64,000 nt of DNA from Myxococcota bacterium (GTDB lineage: Bacteria > Myxococcota_A > UBA796 > UBA9615 > JAKLKC01): positions 1-64,000 of the forward strand of contig JAKLKC010000005.1 of assembly GCA_023150875.1 (NCBI GenBank), read 5' to 3'. Numbering within the stretch: the first letter of the stretch is position 1; every line of letters starts with the position of its first letter. The position numbers were made by a program, and so were the translations under genes. The notes below the pieces were generated by a model. It saw only the letters and a program-made list of their open reading frames with translations, was not told the DNA's origin and searched no databases. Below, piece by piece: positions 11,331-52,055 of this stretch.

Positions 11331-13952
11331 TCACTCGAAGTCGAAGGGCTGGACGAAGACCTCCCGGGGCTTGGCGCCGTCGGCGGGTCCGACCACTCCT
11401 TCCTTCTCCATGCGTTCGATGATGCGGGCGGCACGGTTGTATCCGATCTTGAGGCGGCGCTGGAGCATCGACGTCGAGGCGGCACGGGTCTCGGCGACGA
11501 CGGCCACCGCCTGATCGTAATACTCGTCCAGCTCCTCGGCCTCATCGCCGTCATCCTCCGAGGCGTCCTTCGCCTCCAGGATGGAGTCCAGGTACTGGGG
11601 CTCGGCCTGGGCCTTCAGGTGGGTCACGACCCGCTTGACCTCGTCGTCCGAAACGAAGGCCCCGTGGATCCTCTTCAGTTCCCCCTTGCCGGGCAGGAGG
11701 AAGAGCATGTCGCCCTGCCCCAGCAGGTGCTCGGCGCCGTTGCAGTCGAGGATGGTCCGGCTGTCGATCTTGGAGCTGACGCGGAAGGACACCCGGGCGG
11801 GGAAGTTCGCCTTGATGAGGCCGGTGATCACGTCGACGCTGGGGCGCTGGGTGGCGAGCAGCAGGTGGATCCCGGCGGCGCGGGCCATCTGGGCCAGGCG
11901 GACGATGCTGTCCTGCACGTCCTTCGCCGCCACCATCATCAGGTCCGCGAGCTCGTCGATGATGATGACGATGTAGGGCAGCTTCTGGGGCCTCTCCTCC
12001 ACGGGCAGGCCTTTGAGCGCCTCCGCGACGCCGACCTCCAGGGCCATCTTGTCGAGCTGCTCCACCCGCTGGTTGTACCCCACGATGTTGCGGGTCTCGA
12101 GCTGGGCCAGGAGGCGGTAGCGCCGCGCCATCTCCTCCACGGCCCACTTCAGCGCCATGGCGGCCTTCTTGGGGCTGGTGACCACCGGCAGCAGCAGGTG
12201 GGGGATGCCGTCGTAGAGGCTGAACTCCAGCATCTTGGGGTCGACGAGGATCATGCGGACCTCGTCGGGGGTCCGGGAGCAGACGATGGAGAGGATGATG
12301 GAGTTGACGCTGACCGACTTGCCCGAGCCGGTGGTGCCGGCGATGAGGAGGTGGGGCATCTTGGCCCAGTCGGCGGCGGTGGGCTTGCCCACGATGTCCT
12401 TGCCGAAGGCGATGGGGAGCTGGTACCCGCGGCCGTGGAACTCCTCGTGGGCCATGATCTCCCGGAGGTACACGGTCTCGCGGTGCTCGTTGGGGACCTC
12501 GATGCCCACGACGCCCTTGCCCGGGAGGGGGGCGACGATCCGGACCCGCGTCGCCTTGAGGGCCATGGACAGGTCGTCGGAGAGGTTGGCGATCCTCGAC
12601 ACCTTGATGCCGGGGGCCGGCTCGAACTCGAACATGGTGACGACGGGGCCGGGGTGGATCTCCACCACCTGCCCCTCGACGCCGTAGTCCAGCAGCTTCT
12701 GCTCCAGGAGGGTCGCGCGGTCCTGGAGCTGCTGCTCGTCCAGGGAGAGGCGGCTGCGGACGGGCGGATCGAGGAGGGAGAGGGAGGGGATCTCGAAGGC
12801 GTGCCCGTGGCGGGTGAGGGGCAAGCGAAGCTGCTCGGCGTCGGCGGCGCCGCCGTCCTCCATGTGCCTCGACAGGACGATCTTCGCCTTGACGGAAGGA
12901 GCGGGCGGCCCGAGGGGCGGCGGGGCAGGCTCCGGAGCGTCCCCGGGCTCCGGCGGAGGGGGCCCCGCTCCCCGCGCGGGCGCGGGCAGGTGATCGAGGC
13001 GGACCTCGTCGGTGAGGTCCGGAGCCAGGAGCGCGGGCGGGGTCCCGTCGATCGCCCGGGCGGGAGGCGGCTCCACCCGGGGGGTCAGGGGCGGTGCGGC
13101 GGCGATGGCCTCGCCCCTCCCCGGCGAGGGATGCCTTACCGGGGGCGGGACCTTCTCAGGGATCGAAGCGGTCCGCGCGGCGCGAGCCTCCCGCCGCCGG
13201 GCGCGCTCCGCCCACCAGCCCCGAGCGTCTTCGGCGAGGGTTCCGCCGGCGCGGCCGAAGGCGGAGAGGGCCGAGGCGGCGCCGTCGGATCCCGCCCGGC
13301 CCAGCCGCACCAGCCCCGTGGTCAAGCCCTGCCCGGCGCTGGAGGTGAACCGCCCGATCCACGCTCCCGCGGGGGCGAAGGAGAGGTCGAGCCCGAGCTT
13401 GATCGTGACCAGGAGGCTGACCGAGCCCACCACGATGGCGCCGGCGACGTTGAGCCTGGCCTTGAGTGCCTCGGACAGGAAGTGCCCGATCAGGCCCCCC
13501 GTCCGGGCCTCCTGGCCCCCCAGGTCCACCTGGGGTACCAGCAGAGGCGCCAGCGTGAGGAAGGAGAGGCCGATCAGGGCCCAGCTCGCCAGCTCGACGA
13601 GGCGGAGCCCTTCGGAGCGCCGGAACACCAGCCGCCACGCGGCCAGGATCGCCAGGGCGACCGCCGCGTAGGCGCCGATCCCGAGCCCCTGGACCAGCCA
13701 GTCGGCGATCCCCGCCCCCAGCCACCCCACGAGGTTCCGGTACTCCGCGTCGGGCGGGGCCACGGTGTTGCCCGAAGGATCGAAGGCGTCGTAGCTGACC
13801 AGGCTGAGCAGCACCAGGAGCGCCGCCCCGACCAGGAGGATCGCCGCGACCTCCTTCAGGTGCGCCCGGAGGGCCGGGCTCCGCGCCTTGCCGGTCCCGG
13901 TGCGGCGCCGGCCATTGGCCGCCCCGCGCTTCGCCTTGCCGCCGCTCGCCAT
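11331..13952 (-). CDS. ftsK: FtsK/SpoIIIE family DNA translocase
   Basis: FtsK is a membrane-anchored hexameric motor that pumps chromosomal DNA through the division septum and activates dimer resolution. The 873-residue protein has four or five N-terminal membrane helices (about residues 33-190), a Pro/Ala-rich linker (about 240-330), and an alpha-beta motor with the Walker A LIAGTTGSGKS near residue 540 and Walker B IVIIIDELADLM. The C-terminal winged-helix gamma domain that reads KOPS sequences is present (LQRRLKIGYNRAARIIERME). The ATG at 13952 follows a consensus promoter by about 20 bases. lolA and rimO follow in the same direction. Confidence 0.96.
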   Translation of the reverse strand: MASGGKAKRGAANGRRRTGTGKARSPALRAHLKEVAAILLVGAALLVLLSLVSYDAFDPSGNTVAPPDAEYRNLVGWLGAGIADWLVQGLGIGAYAAVALAILAAWRLVFRRSEGLRLVELASWALIGLSFLTLAPLLVPQVDLGGQEARTGGLIGHFLSEALKARLNVAGAIVVGSVSLLVTIKLGLDLSFAPAGAWIGRFTSSAGQGLTTGLVRLGRAGSDGAASALSAFGRAGGTLAEDARGWWAERARRREARAARTASIPEKVPPPVRHPSPGRGEAIAAAPPLTPRVEPPPARAIDGTPPALLAPDLTDEVRLDHLPAPARGAGPPPPEPGDAPEPAPPPLGPPAPSVKAKIVLSRHMEDGGAADAEQLRLPLTRHGHAFEIPSLSLLDPPVRSRLSLDEQQLQDRATLLEQKLLDYGVEGQVVEIHPGPVVTMFEFEPAPGIKVSRIANLSDDLSMALKATRVRIVAPLPGKGVVGIEVPNEHRETVYLREIMAHEEFHGRGYQLPIAFGKDIVGKPTAADWAKMPHLLIAGTTGSGKSVSVNSIILSIVCSRTPDEVRMILVDPKMLEFSLYDGIPHLLLPVVTSPKKAAMALKWAVEEMARRYRLLAQLETRNIVGYNQRVEQLDKMALEVGVAEALKGLPVEERPQKLPYIVIIIDELADLMMVAAKDVQDSIVRLAQMARAAGIHLLLATQRPSVDVITGLIKANFPARVSFRVSSKIDSRTILDCNGAEHLLGQGDMLFLLPGKGELKRIHGAFVSDDEVKRVVTHLKAQAEPQYLDSILEAKDASEDDGDEAEELDEYYDQAVAVVAETRAASTSMLQRRLKIGYNRAARIIERMEKEGVVGPADGAKPREVFVQPFDFE

Positions 13953-40110: not shown

Positions 40111-40890
40111 TCAGTGGACGCCCCGGAAGGCGAAGCGCACCGAGAGGGTGAGGCGGTCGTCGTCGACGCTGACGAGGATGTCGCTGATCCCGGCGGAGAG
40201 CTTCAGGGGCCCCTGGCCGGGGGTGATGAGGTTCTCGAGCTGCTCGCCCCGGAGCAGGGTGAGGGGGTTCACCTTCCCGATCAGCTTCTGCTCCAGGAGC
40301 TTGTCCACGTAGGGCTTGGCGAGCTTGAACACCGGGTGGTCGCCCAGGATCAGGCCCACGTCCTTCACCCGGCCCTGGAGGCTCCGGGTGTTCCGGTCGA
40401 ACTGGACGTCGCCGAGGGTGATGGTGCCGGAGATCGCCTTCTGGAGCAGGAACGGGACCTCGAACTGGTCGTCCAGGAGGTCGGCGCGCCCCTCGGCGGT
40501 GGCGTTCAGCCGGGCGTGCAGGGTCACGCCGTTCTGCCCGTACACGAACTCGGAGCCGTCCCGGGTGACCTCCAGCCTCCACTTGCCCTTCACCCGGACC
40601 AGCCGATCGACGCGGCGGCTCACCTCCTTCCGCGCCTTCTTGAGGGCACCCAGGGCCCTCACCCCGGCGGCTGCCGCCACCGGCGGGACCTTCGGGCTCT
40701 CCAGGAGCTTCATCTGGGAGATCTGGGTCTGGACGCCGTTCAGGAGACCCCGGACCTGCTGGACGGCGTCGAACTCGCCGGTCCCGACCTGTATGGGCAG
40801 GGCCTCCGCCAGGAGATCGGCCCACAGGGACCGGGAGATCGAGAAGCTGAGGTGGTACCCGTCGGGGAGCGCTTGCGTTGCTGCCGCCAT
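40111..40890 (-). CDS. conserved-looking cytoplasmic protein of unknown function
   Basis: I do not recognise this 259-residue protein. It has no signal peptide or membrane helix. The N-terminal part contains GYHLSFSISRSLWADLLAEALP; the middle is basic and helical (LGALKKARKEVSRRVDRLVRVKG); the rest is beta-rich with KWRLEVTRDGSEFVYGQNGV and alternating strands to RLTLSVRFAFRG, suggesting a long beta-sheet lipid-binding-like or tubular domain, though this is only an impression. The ATG at 40890 is the only sensible start. It lies upstream of the enoyl-CoA hydratase gene with 76 bases between. Confidence 0.65.
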   Translation of the reverse strand: MAAATQALPDGYHLSFSISRSLWADLLAEALPIQVGTGEFDAVQQVRGLLNGVQTQISQMKLLESPKVPPVAAAAGVRALGALKKARKEVSRRVDRLVRVKGKWRLEVTRDGSEFVYGQNGVTLHARLNATAEGRADLLDDQFEVPFLLQKAISGTITLGDVQFDRNTRSLQGRVKDVGLILGDHPVFKLAKPYVDKLLEQKLIGKVNPLTLLRGEQLENLITPGQGPLKLSAGISDILVSVDDDRLTLSVRFAFRGVH

Positions 40891-41085
40891 GAGCCCTCCG
40901 CGCGCCGGCGACCCCGGGGCGCGCTACGGACCAGGGCCTCTTCGGCCCCGGTCGCGTCTCCTGAAGCCGCCGCCGGGGCATCGAGGGTCCCGGCCGGCGT
41001 TCCCCCGTCCTGCACAATGTAGCGCACGAACACGTCCAGGAGGAACCGGATGGGGCGGGAGGAGGGAGGGGGACCCGGGGGGGCG

Positions 41086-41101
41086 GCGGCCCGAGGGCCG
41101 C
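41086..41101. terminator. hairpin after the CARDB-type lipoprotein gene
   Basis: GCGGCC and GGCCGC form a 6-bp stem with a CGAG tetraloop immediately after the stop of the leftward lipoprotein gene at 41104. It may end the five-gene lipoprotein operon. Confidence 0.4.
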
Positions 41102-41103
41102 GA

Positions 41104-43914
41104 TCACCAGCTCACGGTGACCATCGAGTCGGAGCGGAAGTCGATGATCCCGTTCACGGAGTCGAACGCGAACCAGTCGTCGGGGGAGACGTCGCAGTAC
41201 CACACGTAGGCGCACGCGCCGGCCGCGAAGCCCAGCGACGTGGAGTGCCCGATGATCCCGAGGTCGTCCAGGGCGATGCGGACGGCGACCGAGTCGTCCT
41301 CCACCACCCCCTTGAGGGGCAGGGCGGGTTCCACCACGTCGCCGTAGAGCCGGTCGTCCCTGAGCCGCCACTCCTCGTACACGAACTCCAGGGCCCACCA
41401 CACGGGCGCGTTGGTGACGTGGACGTCCACGAAGACCGACGCGGGATCGAAGGGGGTGTACGACTCCACCCGGACCCACAGCACCTCGCCGTCGGAGCGG
41501 TAGGACGCGCCCGAGAGGTCGAACTGGTACCCGTTCGCGTCCAGGGCGGCGTCCGAGGCGAGGGGGATGGAGGTCCAGGGCCGGTCGCCCAGCACCAGCC
41601 CGACCTCCTGGGACCACGTGTCGGCGCCGTCGCTCAGGGTCGCGTCGAAGGTGATGGCGTCCCCCATGTACCCGTCGTCGGCCTCGACGCGGAAGGCCGC
41701 GGGCACCGCGTCTGCCTCCCCCGGAGCGAGGGCCGCCGCGCCGAAGGTCGCCTCGCCGTCGGAGACGGTCAGGGGGACCTCGCTGGACGCCGATGGGGCC
41801 AGGAGCACGGTGACCGGCCCCTGGGTGGGGAAGGCGCCGGTGTTCTCGACGGTGACGTCCAGGTCCACCGTCTCCCCCCGGTCGATGGAACCATCGCCGG
41901 TGAAGCCGTCGTCGACGACGACCAGCACGATCTGGGGGCGGGCCCAGGGCACCGCGACGGCGACCGGGACCTCGAAGGACTCCACTCCGTCGGTGACGTC
42001 CAGCACCAGGGAGAGATCGGAGTCGTCCCGATGGCCGCCGGCGACGTCGATGGCGAACGGGGCCTCGGAGACCGCCGCCTCGCCGGTGCCGAGGCCGCTC
42101 GCCCCGAACCCGATGGGCCCGGCCGTGACCACGGTGGCGTCGGGGTCCACCGAGGTCAGGGTCCCCGTCAGCGCCCCCGCGGTGGGGGTCCCGAGGTTCT
42201 GGAGGGTGACCCAGAGCTGGACCCCCGTCGCGCCCGGGGCCACAGGATCGGGGTCCGTCGCCGCGGTGGCGACGAGGGCGGGCGGATCGGGCAACAGCAG
42301 GATCGCCGATCCCCGTGCGGGCACCACCACGGGGAGGCCGGCCGCGGCCTCGGCGATCCCGCCCCACAGGATCTCGAAGCCGGTCACCGTGGCCTCGTAC
42401 AGCCCGTCGTTGGTGGCCTCGAGGAACCAGCGGTGGTCGCCGGCCCCCAGTGGCAGCAGCGCCGCCTGGGGGGTGAGGTCCACCTCCCACGCGAATCCGT
42501 CGGAGGTGGCGACGGCGGTGGTCTCCCAGGCGGGGGCGGAGGGGTCGCCCGCCCCGAGGCGCAGGGTCAGGGCGCCGGAGTCGCCCGCGTCGGCGGTGAC
42601 GGTCCCGACCGAGCCCTCCCCCAGGCGCAGCGTGAAGGGCACCTCGAAGACCCCCGCGTCCGCCGTCACCGACAGGACGAAGTCCAGGTAGGCGTTGTCG
42701 GGGTGGGCGGCGTCGACCTCGAAAACGAAGGGCTGGGAAGACGGCGCGCTGCCGCCCGCGGCGATGGCATCGAAGGAGGCGGAGTCGGACAGCACGGTCA
42801 GCTCCGGGTCCGAGGTGGCGAGGGTGGCGGCCACAGGTCCCGAGCCCACGTCGCTGGCGTTCTCGAGCCACACCGTGACCGACACGGTGTCCCCCGGCCC
42901 GAAGTCCGGGGGATCGACCTCGGTGTCCCCCACCTGGTAGCGGGGGCGCGGGGGGCCCACGTAGACGTCGTCGATCCACCAGCGGTCCGCCGGCCACGTC
43001 CCCTCGTAGTAGAACGCGAGGTAGAGCACCTCGCTCCCGGCGTAGGCCGAGAGGTCGTAGGTCGCCGAGGCCCCCCACTCACCCTCCCCGGGGGCGGGCA
43101 AGGGGTCGGCGACGACGGTGAAGTCGCCGTCCACCCAAGGCTGCCCGAGGCCCGTGGAGACGAGGAGGGCGTGCCTGCCGTAGCTGTCGGTGTACCGGCC
43201 GTACTCGGTCCACGACACCGTCACGTCCGTCGCCCCCACCAGGCTCAGGGGCGGCGAGATCAGCCAGTCCTGGAGGGGGCCGGCGAGGCCGCTGACCCCG
43301 TCGGTGTGCCAGGCGGAGCGCGCCCCCGAGAACGCCTGATCGGCGGTCACATCCCAGTCGTAGTAGGGGAAACCGGCCGTGAAGAGGGTCCAGCCGAGGT
43401 CCGTGATGGAGCCATCCCCCTCGAAGTCCTCTTCGAAGGGCAGGTCGCCGCCCACGACCCGGGTGGCGAAGGTCTGGAAGACCTCCGGCGCCCCCTCGGG
43501 CCAGGTGGACTCTCCCCTCGGGCTGCCGATGTCGGTGGCCTTGATGTAGTAGTCCACCCCGGCGACGGTGACGGTGCCCGCGTCGATGGTGGCCACCCAC
43601 TCGTCGCTCCCCTCGGTGGCCCGCTCGAAGAAGCGGGCAGCGAAGGAGGACTGGCCGCTGGCGCGGACGAACAGGGTGACGGACCCGACCCCCTCCTGGT
43701 CGGTGACCCGGCAGCGCGCCTCCACCTCCTGGCCGACCACCTGCCCGTCGGCGATGGCGGTGTGCTCGATCACCGGGGGAGTGGCCTCCCGCACCGAGGT
43801 GTCGTCGTCGGCCGGGGGGACCTCCTCCTGGCATCCGGCCCCCGCGACGAGGGCGACGGCGATCACGGCGGAGGGCGCGAAGAACCTGCAGAGCGATGCG
43901 GTGCGGGCGGTCAT
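41104..43914 (-). CDS. large multidomain lipoprotein with Ig/CARDB-like domains
   Basis: The 936-residue protein begins with a lipoprotein signal (IAVALVAGAGC, Cys at about 28) and a short acidic tether (EEVPPADDDTS). An Ig-like module follows, then a MAM/choice-of-anchor-J-like jelly roll (FEEDFEGDGSITDLGWTLF, WWIDDVYVGPP). Three or more CARDB/NEAR-type beta-sandwich repeats come next, each opening with PGDTVSVTVWLENA-like sequence (PGATGVQLWVTLQNLG, GETVDLDVTVENTG). The last 150 residues are another jelly-roll-like domain with a Cys pair (GACAYVWYCD). No catalytic residues are recognisable, so a surface binding or adhesive role is likely. It ends a run of five same-direction lipoprotein genes. 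Confidence 0.8.
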   Translation of the reverse strand: MTARTASLCRFFAPSAVIAVALVAGAGCQEEVPPADDDTSVREATPPVIEHTAIADGQVVGQEVEARCRVTDQEGVGSVTLFVRASGQSSFAARFFERATEGSDEWVATIDAGTVTVAGVDYYIKATDIGSPRGESTWPEGAPEVFQTFATRVVGGDLPFEEDFEGDGSITDLGWTLFTAGFPYYDWDVTADQAFSGARSAWHTDGVSGLAGPLQDWLISPPLSLVGATDVTVSWTEYGRYTDSYGRHALLVSTGLGQPWVDGDFTVVADPLPAPGEGEWGASATYDLSAYAGSEVLYLAFYYEGTWPADRWWIDDVYVGPPRPRYQVGDTEVDPPDFGPGDTVSVTVWLENASDVGSGPVAATLATSDPELTVLSDSASFDAIAAGGSAPSSQPFVFEVDAAHPDNAYLDFVLSVTADAGVFEVPFTLRLGEGSVGTVTADAGDSGALTLRLGAGDPSAPAWETTAVATSDGFAWEVDLTPQAALLPLGAGDHRWFLEATNDGLYEATVTGFEILWGGIAEAAAGLPVVVPARGSAILLLPDPPALVATAATDPDPVAPGATGVQLWVTLQNLGTPTAGALTGTLTSVDPDATVVTAGPIGFGASGLGTGEAAVSEAPFAIDVAGGHRDDSDLSLVLDVTDGVESFEVPVAVAVPWARPQIVLVVVDDGFTGDGSIDRGETVDLDVTVENTGAFPTQGPVTVLLAPSASSEVPLTVSDGEATFGAAALAPGEADAVPAAFRVEADDGYMGDAITFDATLSDGADTWSQEVGLVLGDRPWTSIPLASDAALDANGYQFDLSGASYRSDGEVLWVRVESYTPFDPASVFVDVHVTNAPVWWALEFVYEEWRLRDDRLYGDVVEPALPLKGVVEDDSVAVRIALDDLGIIGHSTSLGFAAGACAYVWYCDVSPDDWFAFDSVNGIIDFRSDSMVTVSW

Positions 43915-49156: not shown

Positions 49157-49864
49157 GTGCCCGCCGCCGCGCCCGAGCTCTCCATCGCCATCCCCCTGTA
49201 CAACGAGGCGGGGAACGTCGAGAGGATCGCCCGCGGCCTGGTCCACGAGGCGCGGCTCGCCGGCGTGGCGCTGGAGCTGGTCCTGGTGGACAACGGCAGC
49301 GCCGACGACACCGGCGCCCGGGCCGACGCCGTCGCCGCCGCCCTTCCCGAGGTGCGCGCGGTGCGGGTGGCCCCCAATCGGGGGTATGGCGGCGGGATCC
49401 TGGCGGGGATCTCCGAGTGCAGGGCGCCGGTGCTGGGCTACATGTGGGGGGACGGGCAGGTCCGGCCGGAGGTCGCCCTGGCGGTGTACCGGCGGCTCGT
49501 CGACGAGGGCCTGGACCTGTGCAAGGCCCGTCGCGTCGACCGCCACGACGGCCTGGTGCGCCTGGGAGTCACCCGCGTGTACAACCGGGTCTTCCCCCTG
49601 CTCTTCCCGGTGGGGACCGACGACGCCAACGGCTGCCCCAAGCTCTTCACCCGCCAGGCCTGGGAGCGGATCGCGCCCCGCTCCGCCGACTGGTTCCTCG
49701 ATCCCGAGGTCCTCATCCTCGCCCGGCGCCACGGGATGCGGGTGGGCGAGGTGGACGCCGTCTTCCATCCCCGGGAGCACGGCCGCTCGAAGGTGCGCCT
49801 CTCGACCGTGGCGGAGTTCGGCCGGAACCTGGTGTCCTGGCGCTTGAAGGGAGGCCCCCCGTGA
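49157..49864 (+). CDS. family 2 glycosyltransferase
   Basis: The 235-residue protein is a GT-A fold glycosyltransferase of family 2 (DPM1/DolP-mannose synthase-like). It shows SIAIPLYNEAGNVERIARGL, the nucleotide-binding VLVDNGSADDTG, and YMWGDGQVRP in place of the usual DxD. The C-terminus lacks membrane helices, so it probably acts at the cytoplasmic face on a soluble or polyprenyl acceptor. The GTG at 49157 lies just after the RNase HII stop, without a good ribosome-binding site, so translation is probably coupled. The next gene overlaps its stop by four bases. Confidence 0.88.
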   Translation: MPAAAPELSIAIPLYNEAGNVERIARGLVHEARLAGVALELVLVDNGSADDTGARADAVAAALPEVRAVRVAPNRGYGGGILAGISECRAPVLGYMWGDGQVRPEVALAVYRRLVDEGLDLCKARRVDRHDGLVRLGVTRVYNRVFPLLFPVGTDDANGCPKLFTRQAWERIAPRSADWFLDPEVLILARRHGMRVGEVDAVFHPREHGRSKVRLSTVAEFGRNLVSWRLKGGPP

Positions 49865-50649
49865 GCGAGGAGCGGATGCCCCGGGTGCTGGTGCTGTGCG
49901 GCGGCCAGGGCACGCGGCTGAAGGAGGAGACCGAGTTCCGGCCGAAGCCCATGGTCGAGGTGGGAGGGCGCCCCCTCCTGTGGCACATCATGCAGATCTA
50001 CGCTTCCCAGGGCTTCCGCTCGTTCGTGCTCGCGCTGGGGTTCAAGGGCCACGTCATCCGCGACTACTTCCTGAACTACAGGGCGCGCACGGCGGACTTC
50101 ACGTTCGTGCCCGGGGACGGAGGCGGGGTCACCTGGCACGGCGACCTCGACATCGCCGGCTGGGAGATCACCTTCGTCGACACCGGCGAGAACACGCCGA
50201 CGGGCGGGAGGGTCCGACGCGCCTCGCGCTACGTGGACGGCGACGTGTTCCTGATGACCTACGGCGACGGGGTGGCAGACATCGACGTCCGGGCGCTGCT
50301 GGCGTACCACCGGCGCCACGGGCGCCTGGCGACCGTGACGGGGCTGAAGCCCGTCAGCCGGTTCGGCGTGCTGGAGGCCGACGGCGAGGGCCGGGTCAGC
50401 CGCTTCCGGGAGAAGCCGCGCCTGGATGGCATGGTGTCGGGGGGCTTCTTCGTGCTGGACCGGCGGGTGGTGGAGGACCTCGACGACGACTGCGTGTTCG
50501 AGGAGGGCCCCATCGAGCGCCTCGCCGAGAAGGGCGAGCTGATGGTCCACCCCCACGACGGCTTCTGGTTCAGCGTCGACACCTACCGGGACTACCTGGA
50601 GATCAACCGGATGTGGGACGCGGGGGAGCGCCCCTGGAAGCGCTGGTAG
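49861..50649 (+). CDS. rfbF: sugar-1-phosphate nucleotidyltransferase, glucose-1-phosphate cytidylyltransferase (RfbF-like)
   Basis: The 262-residue enzyme matches RfbF, which makes CDP-glucose for dideoxysugars of O-antigen and other surface polysaccharides. It has VLCGGQGTRLKEETEFRPKPMVEVGG at its start, the active-site WHIMQIYASQGF, and GFWFSVDTYRDYLEINRMW near its end, a typical RfbF C-terminus. The GTG at 49861 overlaps the glycosyltransferase stop as GTGA with GGGAGG six bases upstream. The CDP-glucose 4,6-dehydratase expected next is absent; the following 670 bases are non-coding. Confidence 0.88.
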   Translation: MSEERMPRVLVLCGGQGTRLKEETEFRPKPMVEVGGRPLLWHIMQIYASQGFRSFVLALGFKGHVIRDYFLNYRARTADFTFVPGDGGGVTWHGDLDIAGWEITFVDTGENTPTGGRVRRASRYVDGDVFLMTYGDGVADIDVRALLAYHRRHGRLATVTGLKPVSRFGVLEADGEGRVSRFREKPRLDGMVSGGFFVLDRRVVEDLDDDCVFEEGPIERLAEKGELMVHPHDGFWFSVDTYRDYLEINRMWDAGERPWKRW

Positions 50650-50689
50650 GGGACCGCGTCTCGAGAGAACGGCGGTGGTGGAAAGGGCG

Positions 50690-50727
50690 GGGGGCGCGAT
50701 GCGCGCTTTCGCGAGCACCGCGCCCCC
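50690..50727 (-). terminator. terminator hairpin of the GGA-hairpin RNA
   Basis: GGGGGCGCG (50690-50698) and CGCGCCCCC (50719-50727) form a 9-bp stem enclosing a second small helix capped by a GAAA tetraloop on the minus strand. GCCCTTTCC follows on that strand. It is placed to end the minus-strand RNA and may also serve the convergent rfbF gene, whose stop lies 41 bases away. Confidence 0.65.
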
Positions 50728-50767
50728 ACTCCTCCTAGCCCGCGGCCGCCACCGCGGGTCGTTCCTC

Positions 50768-51055
50768 GCGTCCATCCTGGACGCACCCACGCCTTCCTGG
50801 CGTGCGAAGCCCTGGGCCGCTCACCCTTCCTTGGGTCCGTGGCCTTCCTCGGCTGCCCCGGTCACGTCGTCCCGCCCGTCTTGGGGACGGTCGCCTTCCT
50901 GGCGCGGGACTCTGCTTCCCGGGTTCGGCACCTGGCGATCGCCGGAATGCCCTTCGGTCGGTCTCCCTCGGGGAATGCCATCCTGGCTCCGCGGATGGAG
51001 TCGCATCCAGCGACTGGACCTTCCTGGTCCTCCATCCACGCCCCCGCCTCCTGGC
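50768..51055 (-). repeat. array of nine GGA-loop hairpins
   Basis: Individual hairpins are at 50768-50784 (loop AGGAT), 50788-50804 (AGGAA), 50823-50836 (AAGGAA), 50842-50853 (GAGGAA), 50892-50904 (AGGAA), 50977-50987 (AGGAT), 50999-51015 (TGGAT), 51016-51030 (AGGAA) and 51046-51055 (AGGA). Loops are given as read on the minus strand. Stems are 3-6 bp and their sequences differ, while the loop is conserved. That pattern indicates selection on the loop in an RNA structure rather than simple DNA duplication. Confidence 0.88.
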
Positions 51056-51110
51056 TCGGAGATCCGGACGTTCTCTTGACTTTCCAACGATCCGCCGCTC
51101 TGGTCCGACT

Positions 51111-51323
51111 GTTGAGCAGCATCCATGCCATCGTGCCACCACATTTCGGAATATTTCTTCCCTCCATGAATGAATTGCGGCAAAGCGTTGAAATTAAAGG
51201 ACATTGAGGACGAACCACCGGAGATCCGATCCCGCGCCTCCTGGGCGGTCCGGTGGGAAGGAGGCGACGCAGCGTCGGGGGGCTGTGCAATCCGCTGCAT
51301 GCGTGCAATCGACTGCATAACCG
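51111..51323. promoter_or_regulatory. AT-rich leader and tandem repeats upstream of the GGA-hairpin RNA
   Basis: This non-coding stretch contains the most AT-rich segment of the neighbourhood (about 51140-51215, with GGAATATTTC and GAAATTAAAGG), which contrasts with the GC-rich genome and suits a regulated promoter for the minus-strand RNA. It also holds the direct repeats at 51285-51318. No convincing -35/-10 pair was found, so the promoter type is unknown. Confidence 0.5.
51285..51318. repeat. tandem 16-bp direct repeat
   Basis: Two near-identical units, GTGCAATCCGCTGCAT (51285-51300) and GTGCAATCGACTGCAT (51303-51318), are spaced 18 bases apart, and a related ATGCATTCTCGTGCAG follows at 51326-51341. 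The spacing of almost two helical turns suggests binding by a regulator. They lie just after the stop of the M50 peptidase gene, about 200 bases upstream of the probable 5' end of the GGA-hairpin RNA. Confidence 0.6.
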
Positions 51324-52055
51324 CTATGCATTCTCGTGCAGCCCTTGGCCCGTCCCGAGCGGAGAGTGCCGTTGCGCCTCCTCCCGGAGCCAGTCGACGA
51401 ATACGGCGGGAGTGCCCGGGGGCGGATCGGCGCCCCAGTGGAAGCCGGGAGGTGGCGGGTGCCCCGAGGCGGCGACACAGAGGTCGAGCACGAACCGGCC
51501 GACCGGGTTGCCGACCCGGGGACGGGCGAAGGCGGCCCGGGTGGCGATCCGGTGGGCCGGCGGGGCCACGCCGCGCCCTCGCCCCCCGAGGGCGGCGGCC
51601 GCGAGGGCCCCATCGGTCTCGAGGACCGCGCCCCCGAGGCTCAGCCGCAGGGGGAGCAGGTTCGCCGCCGCGGTCAGGCCGTTGAGGGCCAGGACGGGCC
51701 GGAGCCACGGCGCCAGGTCGGGGCGACCGGCCAGCAGCCCGTACAGGGCGGCGTGGAGGGTGCCCTGGGCCAGCACCCCCCCGTAGTGGAAGAGGGCCTG
51801 CGCCGCCGGACCCAGGTCCGTCCGGGCGGGGAAGGCCACCGTCGCGCCGCCCCCCAGCAGGTTCACCCCGATGAACAGGTTGAAGGCGGGACCCACGGGG
51901 ATCCGAAGGAACCAGGGCCCCGCCCCCAGTCCCGCCGACGTCACGTAGAAGCCTGCGAGCCTTCCCGCGATCACGTGCCCCGCCTCGTGGACCACGGCGA
52001 GGGCCGGGAGCGCGAGGAGCAACAGGACGAGGCCAGGCCAGTCACCGGTGAGCAC
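51324..52055 (-). CDS. M50 (site-2 protease-like) membrane metalloprotease family protein
   Basis: The 243-residue membrane protein carries the zinc site HEAGH in AVVHEAGHVIAGRLAG (about residues 21-36), and a later ETDGALA that fits the third metal ligand (LDG-type Asp). Hydrophobic helices flank both. This is the core of M50 intramembrane proteases, which cleave membrane-bound regulators or signal peptides. There is no PDZ domain. The C-terminal 80 residues are hydrophilic. The GTG at 52055 is the best start, though no ribosome-binding site is clear. It ends the riboflavin/nusB operon and directly precedes the regulatory repeats. Confidence 0.78.
   Translation of the reverse strand: MLTGDWPGLVLLLLALPALAVVHEAGHVIAGRLAGFYVTSAGLGAGPWFLRIPVGPAFNLFIGVNLLGGGATVAFPARTDLGPAAQALFHYGGVLAQGTLHAALYGLLAGRPDLAPWLRPVLALNGLTAAANLLPLRLSLGGAVLETDGALAAAALGGRGRGVAPPAHRIATRAAFARPRVGNPVGRFVLDLCVAASGHPPPPGFHWGADPPPGTPAVFVDWLREEAQRHSPLGTGQGLHENA

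Follow-up and report, generated by a model that had tools for sequence, protein, structure and literature searches.

Nine GGA-loop hairpins follow one another on the minus strand of a Myxococcota contig, and the question they raise is whether this locus encodes a small RNA that sequesters CsrA. To our knowledge, this GGA-hairpin device has been described so far almost only in Gammaproteobacteria. The window analysed here is the whole 64,000-nucleotide stretch in which the locus lies. Our analysis makes it very probable that the minus strand from about 51130 to 50686 is a non-coding RNA of about 350-450 nt, of the CsrB/RsmZ kind, with GGA hairpins that titrate CsrA. Direct observation covers the array and the degree to which it exceeds chance, its place between genes without signs of coding, a single csrA with its contact residues, the lack of any detected FliW in the class and the comparable GGA-array RNA genes of two further class members with csrA; transcription, binding and titration are inferred.

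Nine consecutive local hairpins with GGA in the loop can be read on the minus strand between 51055 and 50767, as the sequence-only reading had proposed, and its figure of about 25 GGA triplets was also borne out, since 25 were counted in the 421 nt of 50690-51110. The parts of the locus are as follows.

50767..51055, minus strand: array of nine GGA-loop hairpins, the proposed CsrA-binding body of the sRNA (sequence, shuffles, detector and ensemble)
51046..51055, minus strand: hairpin 1, GCC-AGGA-GGC (GGA in loop in 0.85 of the ensemble)
51016..51030, minus strand: hairpin 2, GGACC-AGGAA-GGUCC (GGA in loop in 1.0 of the ensemble)
50999..51015, minus strand: hairpin 3, AGUCGC-UGGAU-GCGACU (GGA in loop in 1.0)
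50977..50987, minus strand: hairpin 4, GCC-AGGAU-GGC (GGA in loop in 0.92)
50892..50904, minus strand: hairpin 5, CGCC-AGGAA-GGCG (GGA in loop in 1.0)
50842..50853, minus strand: hairpin 6, GCC-GAGGAA-GGC, weak (only 0.03 of the ensemble)
50823..50836, minus strand: hairpin 7, ACCC-AAGGAA-GGGU (GGA in loop in 1.0)
50788..50804, minus strand: hairpin 8, CACGCC-AGGAA-GGCGUG (GGA in loop in 1.0)
50767..50785, minus strand: hairpin 9, UGCGUCC-AGGAU-GGACGCG (GGA in loop in 1.0)
50738..50758, minus strand: GC-rich hairpin without a GGA loop, CCCGCGGU..GCCGCGGG (sequence and hairpin count)
50686..50729, minus strand: very stable 3' hairpin without a U-run, the probable transcript end (folding and terminator scan)

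The loops run, in order, AGGA, AGGAA, UGGAU, AGGAU, AGGAA, GAGGAA, AAGGAA, AGGAA and AGGAU. Neighbouring hairpins are mostly 16-50 nt apart, and hairpins 2 and 3 branch from a three-way junction whose closing stem is 51040-51032 / 51000-50991. The stems, described earlier as different, do mostly differ, but in three of the nine the stem is just 3 bp long, and hairpin 6 rarely forms. A terminator-like stem had also been placed near 50690-50727; it is real and strong, but it is followed by only UUU rather than a U-run, and the terminator scan neither called it nor found any U-tailed terminator for this RNA.

The array is intergenic, lying between the 3' ends of two convergent genes, and its surroundings contain the following features.

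51324..52052, minus strand (shared with the array): upstream neighbour, gene for an M50-like membrane protein, its stop ending at 51324
49840..50649, plus strand: convergent neighbour, nucleotidyltransferase gene (NTP_transferase, RfbF-like), ending at 50649
51120..51199, minus strand: AT-rich island of 42-45% GC against about 70% around it, a candidate promoter
51314..51330, no strand assigned: perfect palindrome TGCATAGCGGTTATGCA (TGCAT-N7-ATGCA), about 260 nt upstream of hairpin 1

Across the array the GC content by codon position is flat (.63/.74/.74), third-position GC in the neighbouring RibBA, NusB and nucleotidyltransferase genes is.93-.97, and the ORFs that cross the array matched no Pfam family; the array thus passes as intergenic and non-coding, one of the tests for membership among CsrA-sequestering sRNAs. 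As it lies just upstream of the array, the AT-rich island is the natural place for a promoter. A search for sigma-70 promoters upstream of the array, island included, gave no good match. The palindrome TGCATAGCGGTTATGCA overlaps the M50-like gene at its stop codon, and an 18-bp direct repeat in tandem (ATGCAGTCGATTGCACGC / ATGCAGCGGATTGCACAG) comes after it within 51283-51330. By inference only, this region upstream of the RNA could possibly be a binding region for a regulator; the palindrome is unrelated to the UvrY/GacA operator.

Such a setting allows that the M50-like gene merely has a GC-rich 3' region here, a 3' UTR with a cluster of terminators in which GGA loops arose by chance or composition and without any function in trans. 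The array shares a strand with that gene, lies between convergent genes at 68-75% GC and has no clear promoter; yet the AT-rich island separates it from the M50-like gene, and the number of GGA triplets held in loops far exceeds that of composition-preserving shuffles. Five strict A(N)GGA-loop hairpins were found in the array, against a mean of 0.43 and a maximum of 4 in 5000 dinucleotide shuffles. In Boltzmann ensembles of 50735-51060, 7.82 GGA triplets lay in hairpin loops, compared with 1.18 +/- 0.81 after shuffling (maximum 4.1 of 100), and E. coli CsrB, carried through the identical procedure as a positive control, gave 10.1 compared with 1.31. Multiple loop-presented A(N)GGA motifs beyond chance, a further membership test, are therefore present. 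Folding of the minus strand, which had been suggested as a check, gave a stable structure (MFE z-score of -4.4 for the 451-nt region). No other stretch of the window approaches the array in GGA-loop hairpins: on a GGA-hairpin detector the array scored 98.5 (eight hairpins in 300 nt) and E. coli CsrB 79.0, and nothing else in the 64 kb exceeded 57.5. Across 2.2 Mb of loci, scores above 60 were reached only by the array, E. coli CsrB and two low-complexity loci, L184 (G046) and L039 (G040), which were rejected as repeats of identical units.

No Rfam family reached its gathering threshold over the array. In a relaxed search the lowest E-values were those of CsrB (0.25, then 1.1), the bit scores for RF00018 were 13.1 and 10.9 where 71 is needed, and CsrC, RsmY and RsmZ gave no covariance match at gathering or at E<=10. 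The Rfam comparison proposed with the sequence-only reading was accordingly negative apart from weak CsrB matches, and we take the RNA to work like CsrB/RsmZ without being, by this test, a member of RF00018. With CsrB and RsmB it shares a long intergenic RNA, many (C)AGGA(W)(G)-loop hairpins and a stable 3' hairpin, and with E. coli csrB also its behaviour in the detector and the ensemble. It differs from CsrB in lying outside the Gammaproteobacteria, in being very GC-rich, in carrying two hairpins on a three-way junction and in showing no alignable sequence homology. RsmX, RsmY, RsmZ and CsrC are shorter, have fewer sites and are controlled by GacA; the array has their loop motif and, by inference, their role in titrating CsrA/RsmA, but no GacA-type upstream site was recognised, although no dedicated search was made. 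A search of plasmid and phage collections returned nothing similar to the array, and the InvenireSRNA prediction paper discusses gammaproteobacterial examples (PMC5568370).

A CsrA-sequestering RNA calls for a CsrA with RNA-binding residues in the same genome, and the absence of a csrA/rsmA homologue would have refuted the idea. The assembly encodes one CsrA, starting MLVLTQKEGEVLQIGDNVRIYIKRVKGNWVRLCIDAPREVTLLRIPVE, which matches solved CsrA structures and keeps the RNA-contact residues L4 and R44; its Q6 and K7, in place of R6 and R7 of E. coli, count against a sponge. This csrA (L023:8785-9093; G000:C102:56784, G000 being the genome of the window) lies between genes for NfeD/SPFH-like membrane proteins and a gene pair for aspartate kinase and diaminopimelate decarboxylase, and is not beside flagellar genes (neighbours were read from translations, without a family search). 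Although csrA is patchy across the class, being present in 22 of 71 genomes, G001, G004, G019, G038, G057 and G058 have similar proteins, with 72-87% identity over the core. The class contains two types of CsrA, a KGNWVRLCIDAP type (G000, G001, G004, G019, G038, G057, G058) and a divergent one (for example G066, G067 and G041). FliW is a protein antagonist of CsrA, and its absence is another membership test, passed here since it was undetected in all 71 genomes of the class, with the B. subtilis and T. maritima controls positive. The FliW-CsrA antagonism of Bacillus, Campylobacter and Geobacter solves the same problem, relief of CsrA, with a protein rather than the RNA proposed here. In a published survey, genomes with csrA carried either BarA-UvrY or FliW, BarA-UvrY being characteristic of gammaproteobacteria and FliW suggested for deltaproteobacteria; species known to use sRNA antagonists of CsrA lacked FliW, and sRNA antagonists made under BarA-UvrY were rarely or never found in that role outside Gammaproteobacteria (PMC4682653). 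Geobacter has FliW, and no CsrB/CsrC-type sRNA has been characterised there (PMC13407953).

No alignable homologue of the array was found in the class by BLAST, pattern or hairpin-model searches. BLAST of the whole array against 58 relatives gave only chance matches of 30-50 nt; the CCAGGAWGG pair pattern, run on 71 genomes, matched outside the window only what looked by eye like coding sequence, and the AGGAWG triple pattern mostly Glu/Lys/Arg-rich coding repeats. A single-hairpin covariance model run over whole genomes gave, among the matches listed, the window array as its sole cluster, and a multi-hairpin model failed because the variable linkers could not be aligned with MAFFT. Synteny could not be followed through the M50-like neighbour, which is missing from order-mates, nor through RibBA, for which the best relative in a scan of named genomes (an uncultured deltaproteobacterium, 61% identical) has a contig that ends before the locus. 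The csrA-bearing order-mates G001 and G004 gave no comparable array in pattern or hairpin searches, so that sponge RNAs there look different or are missing; direct reading of about 350 kb of G001 found none, and a candidate in G004 (L257) was judged by eye to be coding. In G041 we noted Gln/Gly-rich coding repeats (C13; L346) and a CAGGACGGTGCCATTCCGATT unit that recurs at the ends of two contigs (G041:C23:77-156 and G041:C98:52-131), possibly a mobile or repeat element.

In addition to the window array, a permissive scan of csrA-bearing class genomes only, for MAGGANG three times within a short distance, picked up a cluster at equivalent sites in two species that share a genus and belong to a different family.

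L342:5040-5480, equal to G019:C822 about 13040-13480 (cluster about 13140-13370): GGA-array RNA gene (permissive motif scan)
L343:4820-5260, equal to G038:C396 about 40820-41260 (cluster about 40920-41140): GGA-array RNA gene (permissive motif scan)

Both arrays lie between genes, downstream of one that ends on the same strand and opposite a convergent one (read for G019), and each has 13 GGA in about 250 nt; 5.6 and 5.0 of these lie in loops against 0.8 and 0.7 after shuffling. A promoter-like upstream block, TGGACA-N16-TAAACT, is invariant between the two. In the array body none of 39 GGA columns varies, against 23 of 197 others (p = 0.012), and the consensus fold contains six compensatory pairs in which both sides changed and pairing was kept, among them an AGGA-loop stem (GGCC-AGGA-GGCC to GACC-AGGA-GGUC) and two in the 3' hairpin. 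Drawn from two sequences only, this evidence of conservation may be called modest but concordant. Loss of the GGA loops in relatives had been named as a possible refutation; GGA is instead kept more than the rest, but in a different array, the window array itself having no alignable homologue. When R1, a one-hairpin covariance model trained on the window array alone, was run on 22.6 kb comprising csrB and the G019 and G038 loci, 12 matches had E<=0.5, and 11 of the 12 fell inside csrB, where they cluster, or the two arrays. The two kinds of array share the class, a csrA in the genome, an intergenic position and a convergent downstream gene, but differ in family and neighbours. Their best alignment, obtained under permissive scoring in GGA-rich stretches (E of 8e-4), is not convincing, suggesting a possibly separate origin, with common ancestry left open. 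The shuffle controls make the 3' UTR explanation, the main rival, unlikely, and so do the G019/G038 array and the R1 model; similar RNA genes in other csrA-bearing members of the class also speak against it.

If the locus is a CsrA sponge, its eight or nine GGA hairpins would bind several CsrA dimers, the loops filling both RNA sites of a dimer and the hairpin spacing allowing bridging. CsrA would then be titrated off mRNAs, with the level of the RNA setting free CsrA, and by raising that level the cell could relieve CsrA regulation, the role played by FliW elsewhere. Against this reading stand the lack of a good sigma-70 promoter, of a U-tailed terminator and of an alignable homologue, Rfam scores below gathering, and the failure of pattern and hairpin searches to turn up a similar array in G001 and G004. 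It is very unlikely that the loops are bound by a partner other than CsrA, through Hfq-type ARN contacts for example, or act as an anti-Shine-Dalgarno decoy: AGGA is a Shine-Dalgarno core, so the loops resemble it in sequence, and binding data are lacking, but A(N)GGA in stem-closed loops of 5-6 nt is established as a CsrA ligand and not a ribosome or Hfq site, and csrA is present while FliW is absent. That the RNA, as a leader or in trans, is itself a protected or processed CsrA target can scarcely be maintained, for although several GGA hairpins are also found in targets that CsrA binds, this strand has no downstream gene, a convergent gene lies opposite the 3' end, and nine sites suit the stoichiometry of a sponge.

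The window RNA is thus best regarded as a CsrA-sequestering sRNA of the CsrB/RsmZ type that is unnamed in its lineage and may have an independent origin. Whether this FliW-less class of deltaproteobacterium-like bacteria as a whole relies on sponge RNAs to control CsrA, RNAs with an origin separate from that of gammaproteobacterial CsrB/RsmZ and with turnover from family to family, is, in our judgement, evenly balanced. A class with csrA, without FliW and with CsrB-like arrays breaks the gammaproteobacteria-only rule of the survey, in the direction that its own anti-correlation predicts, an RNA antagonist where FliW is lacking (PMC4682653). Concrete candidate RNAs are now available in three genomes, and scanning csrA-positive, fliW-negative genomes for dense AGGA offers a way to find more. 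If independent, class-wide sponges prove true, titration of CsrA by RNA would have evolved convergently rather than being an invention of the Gammaproteobacteria.
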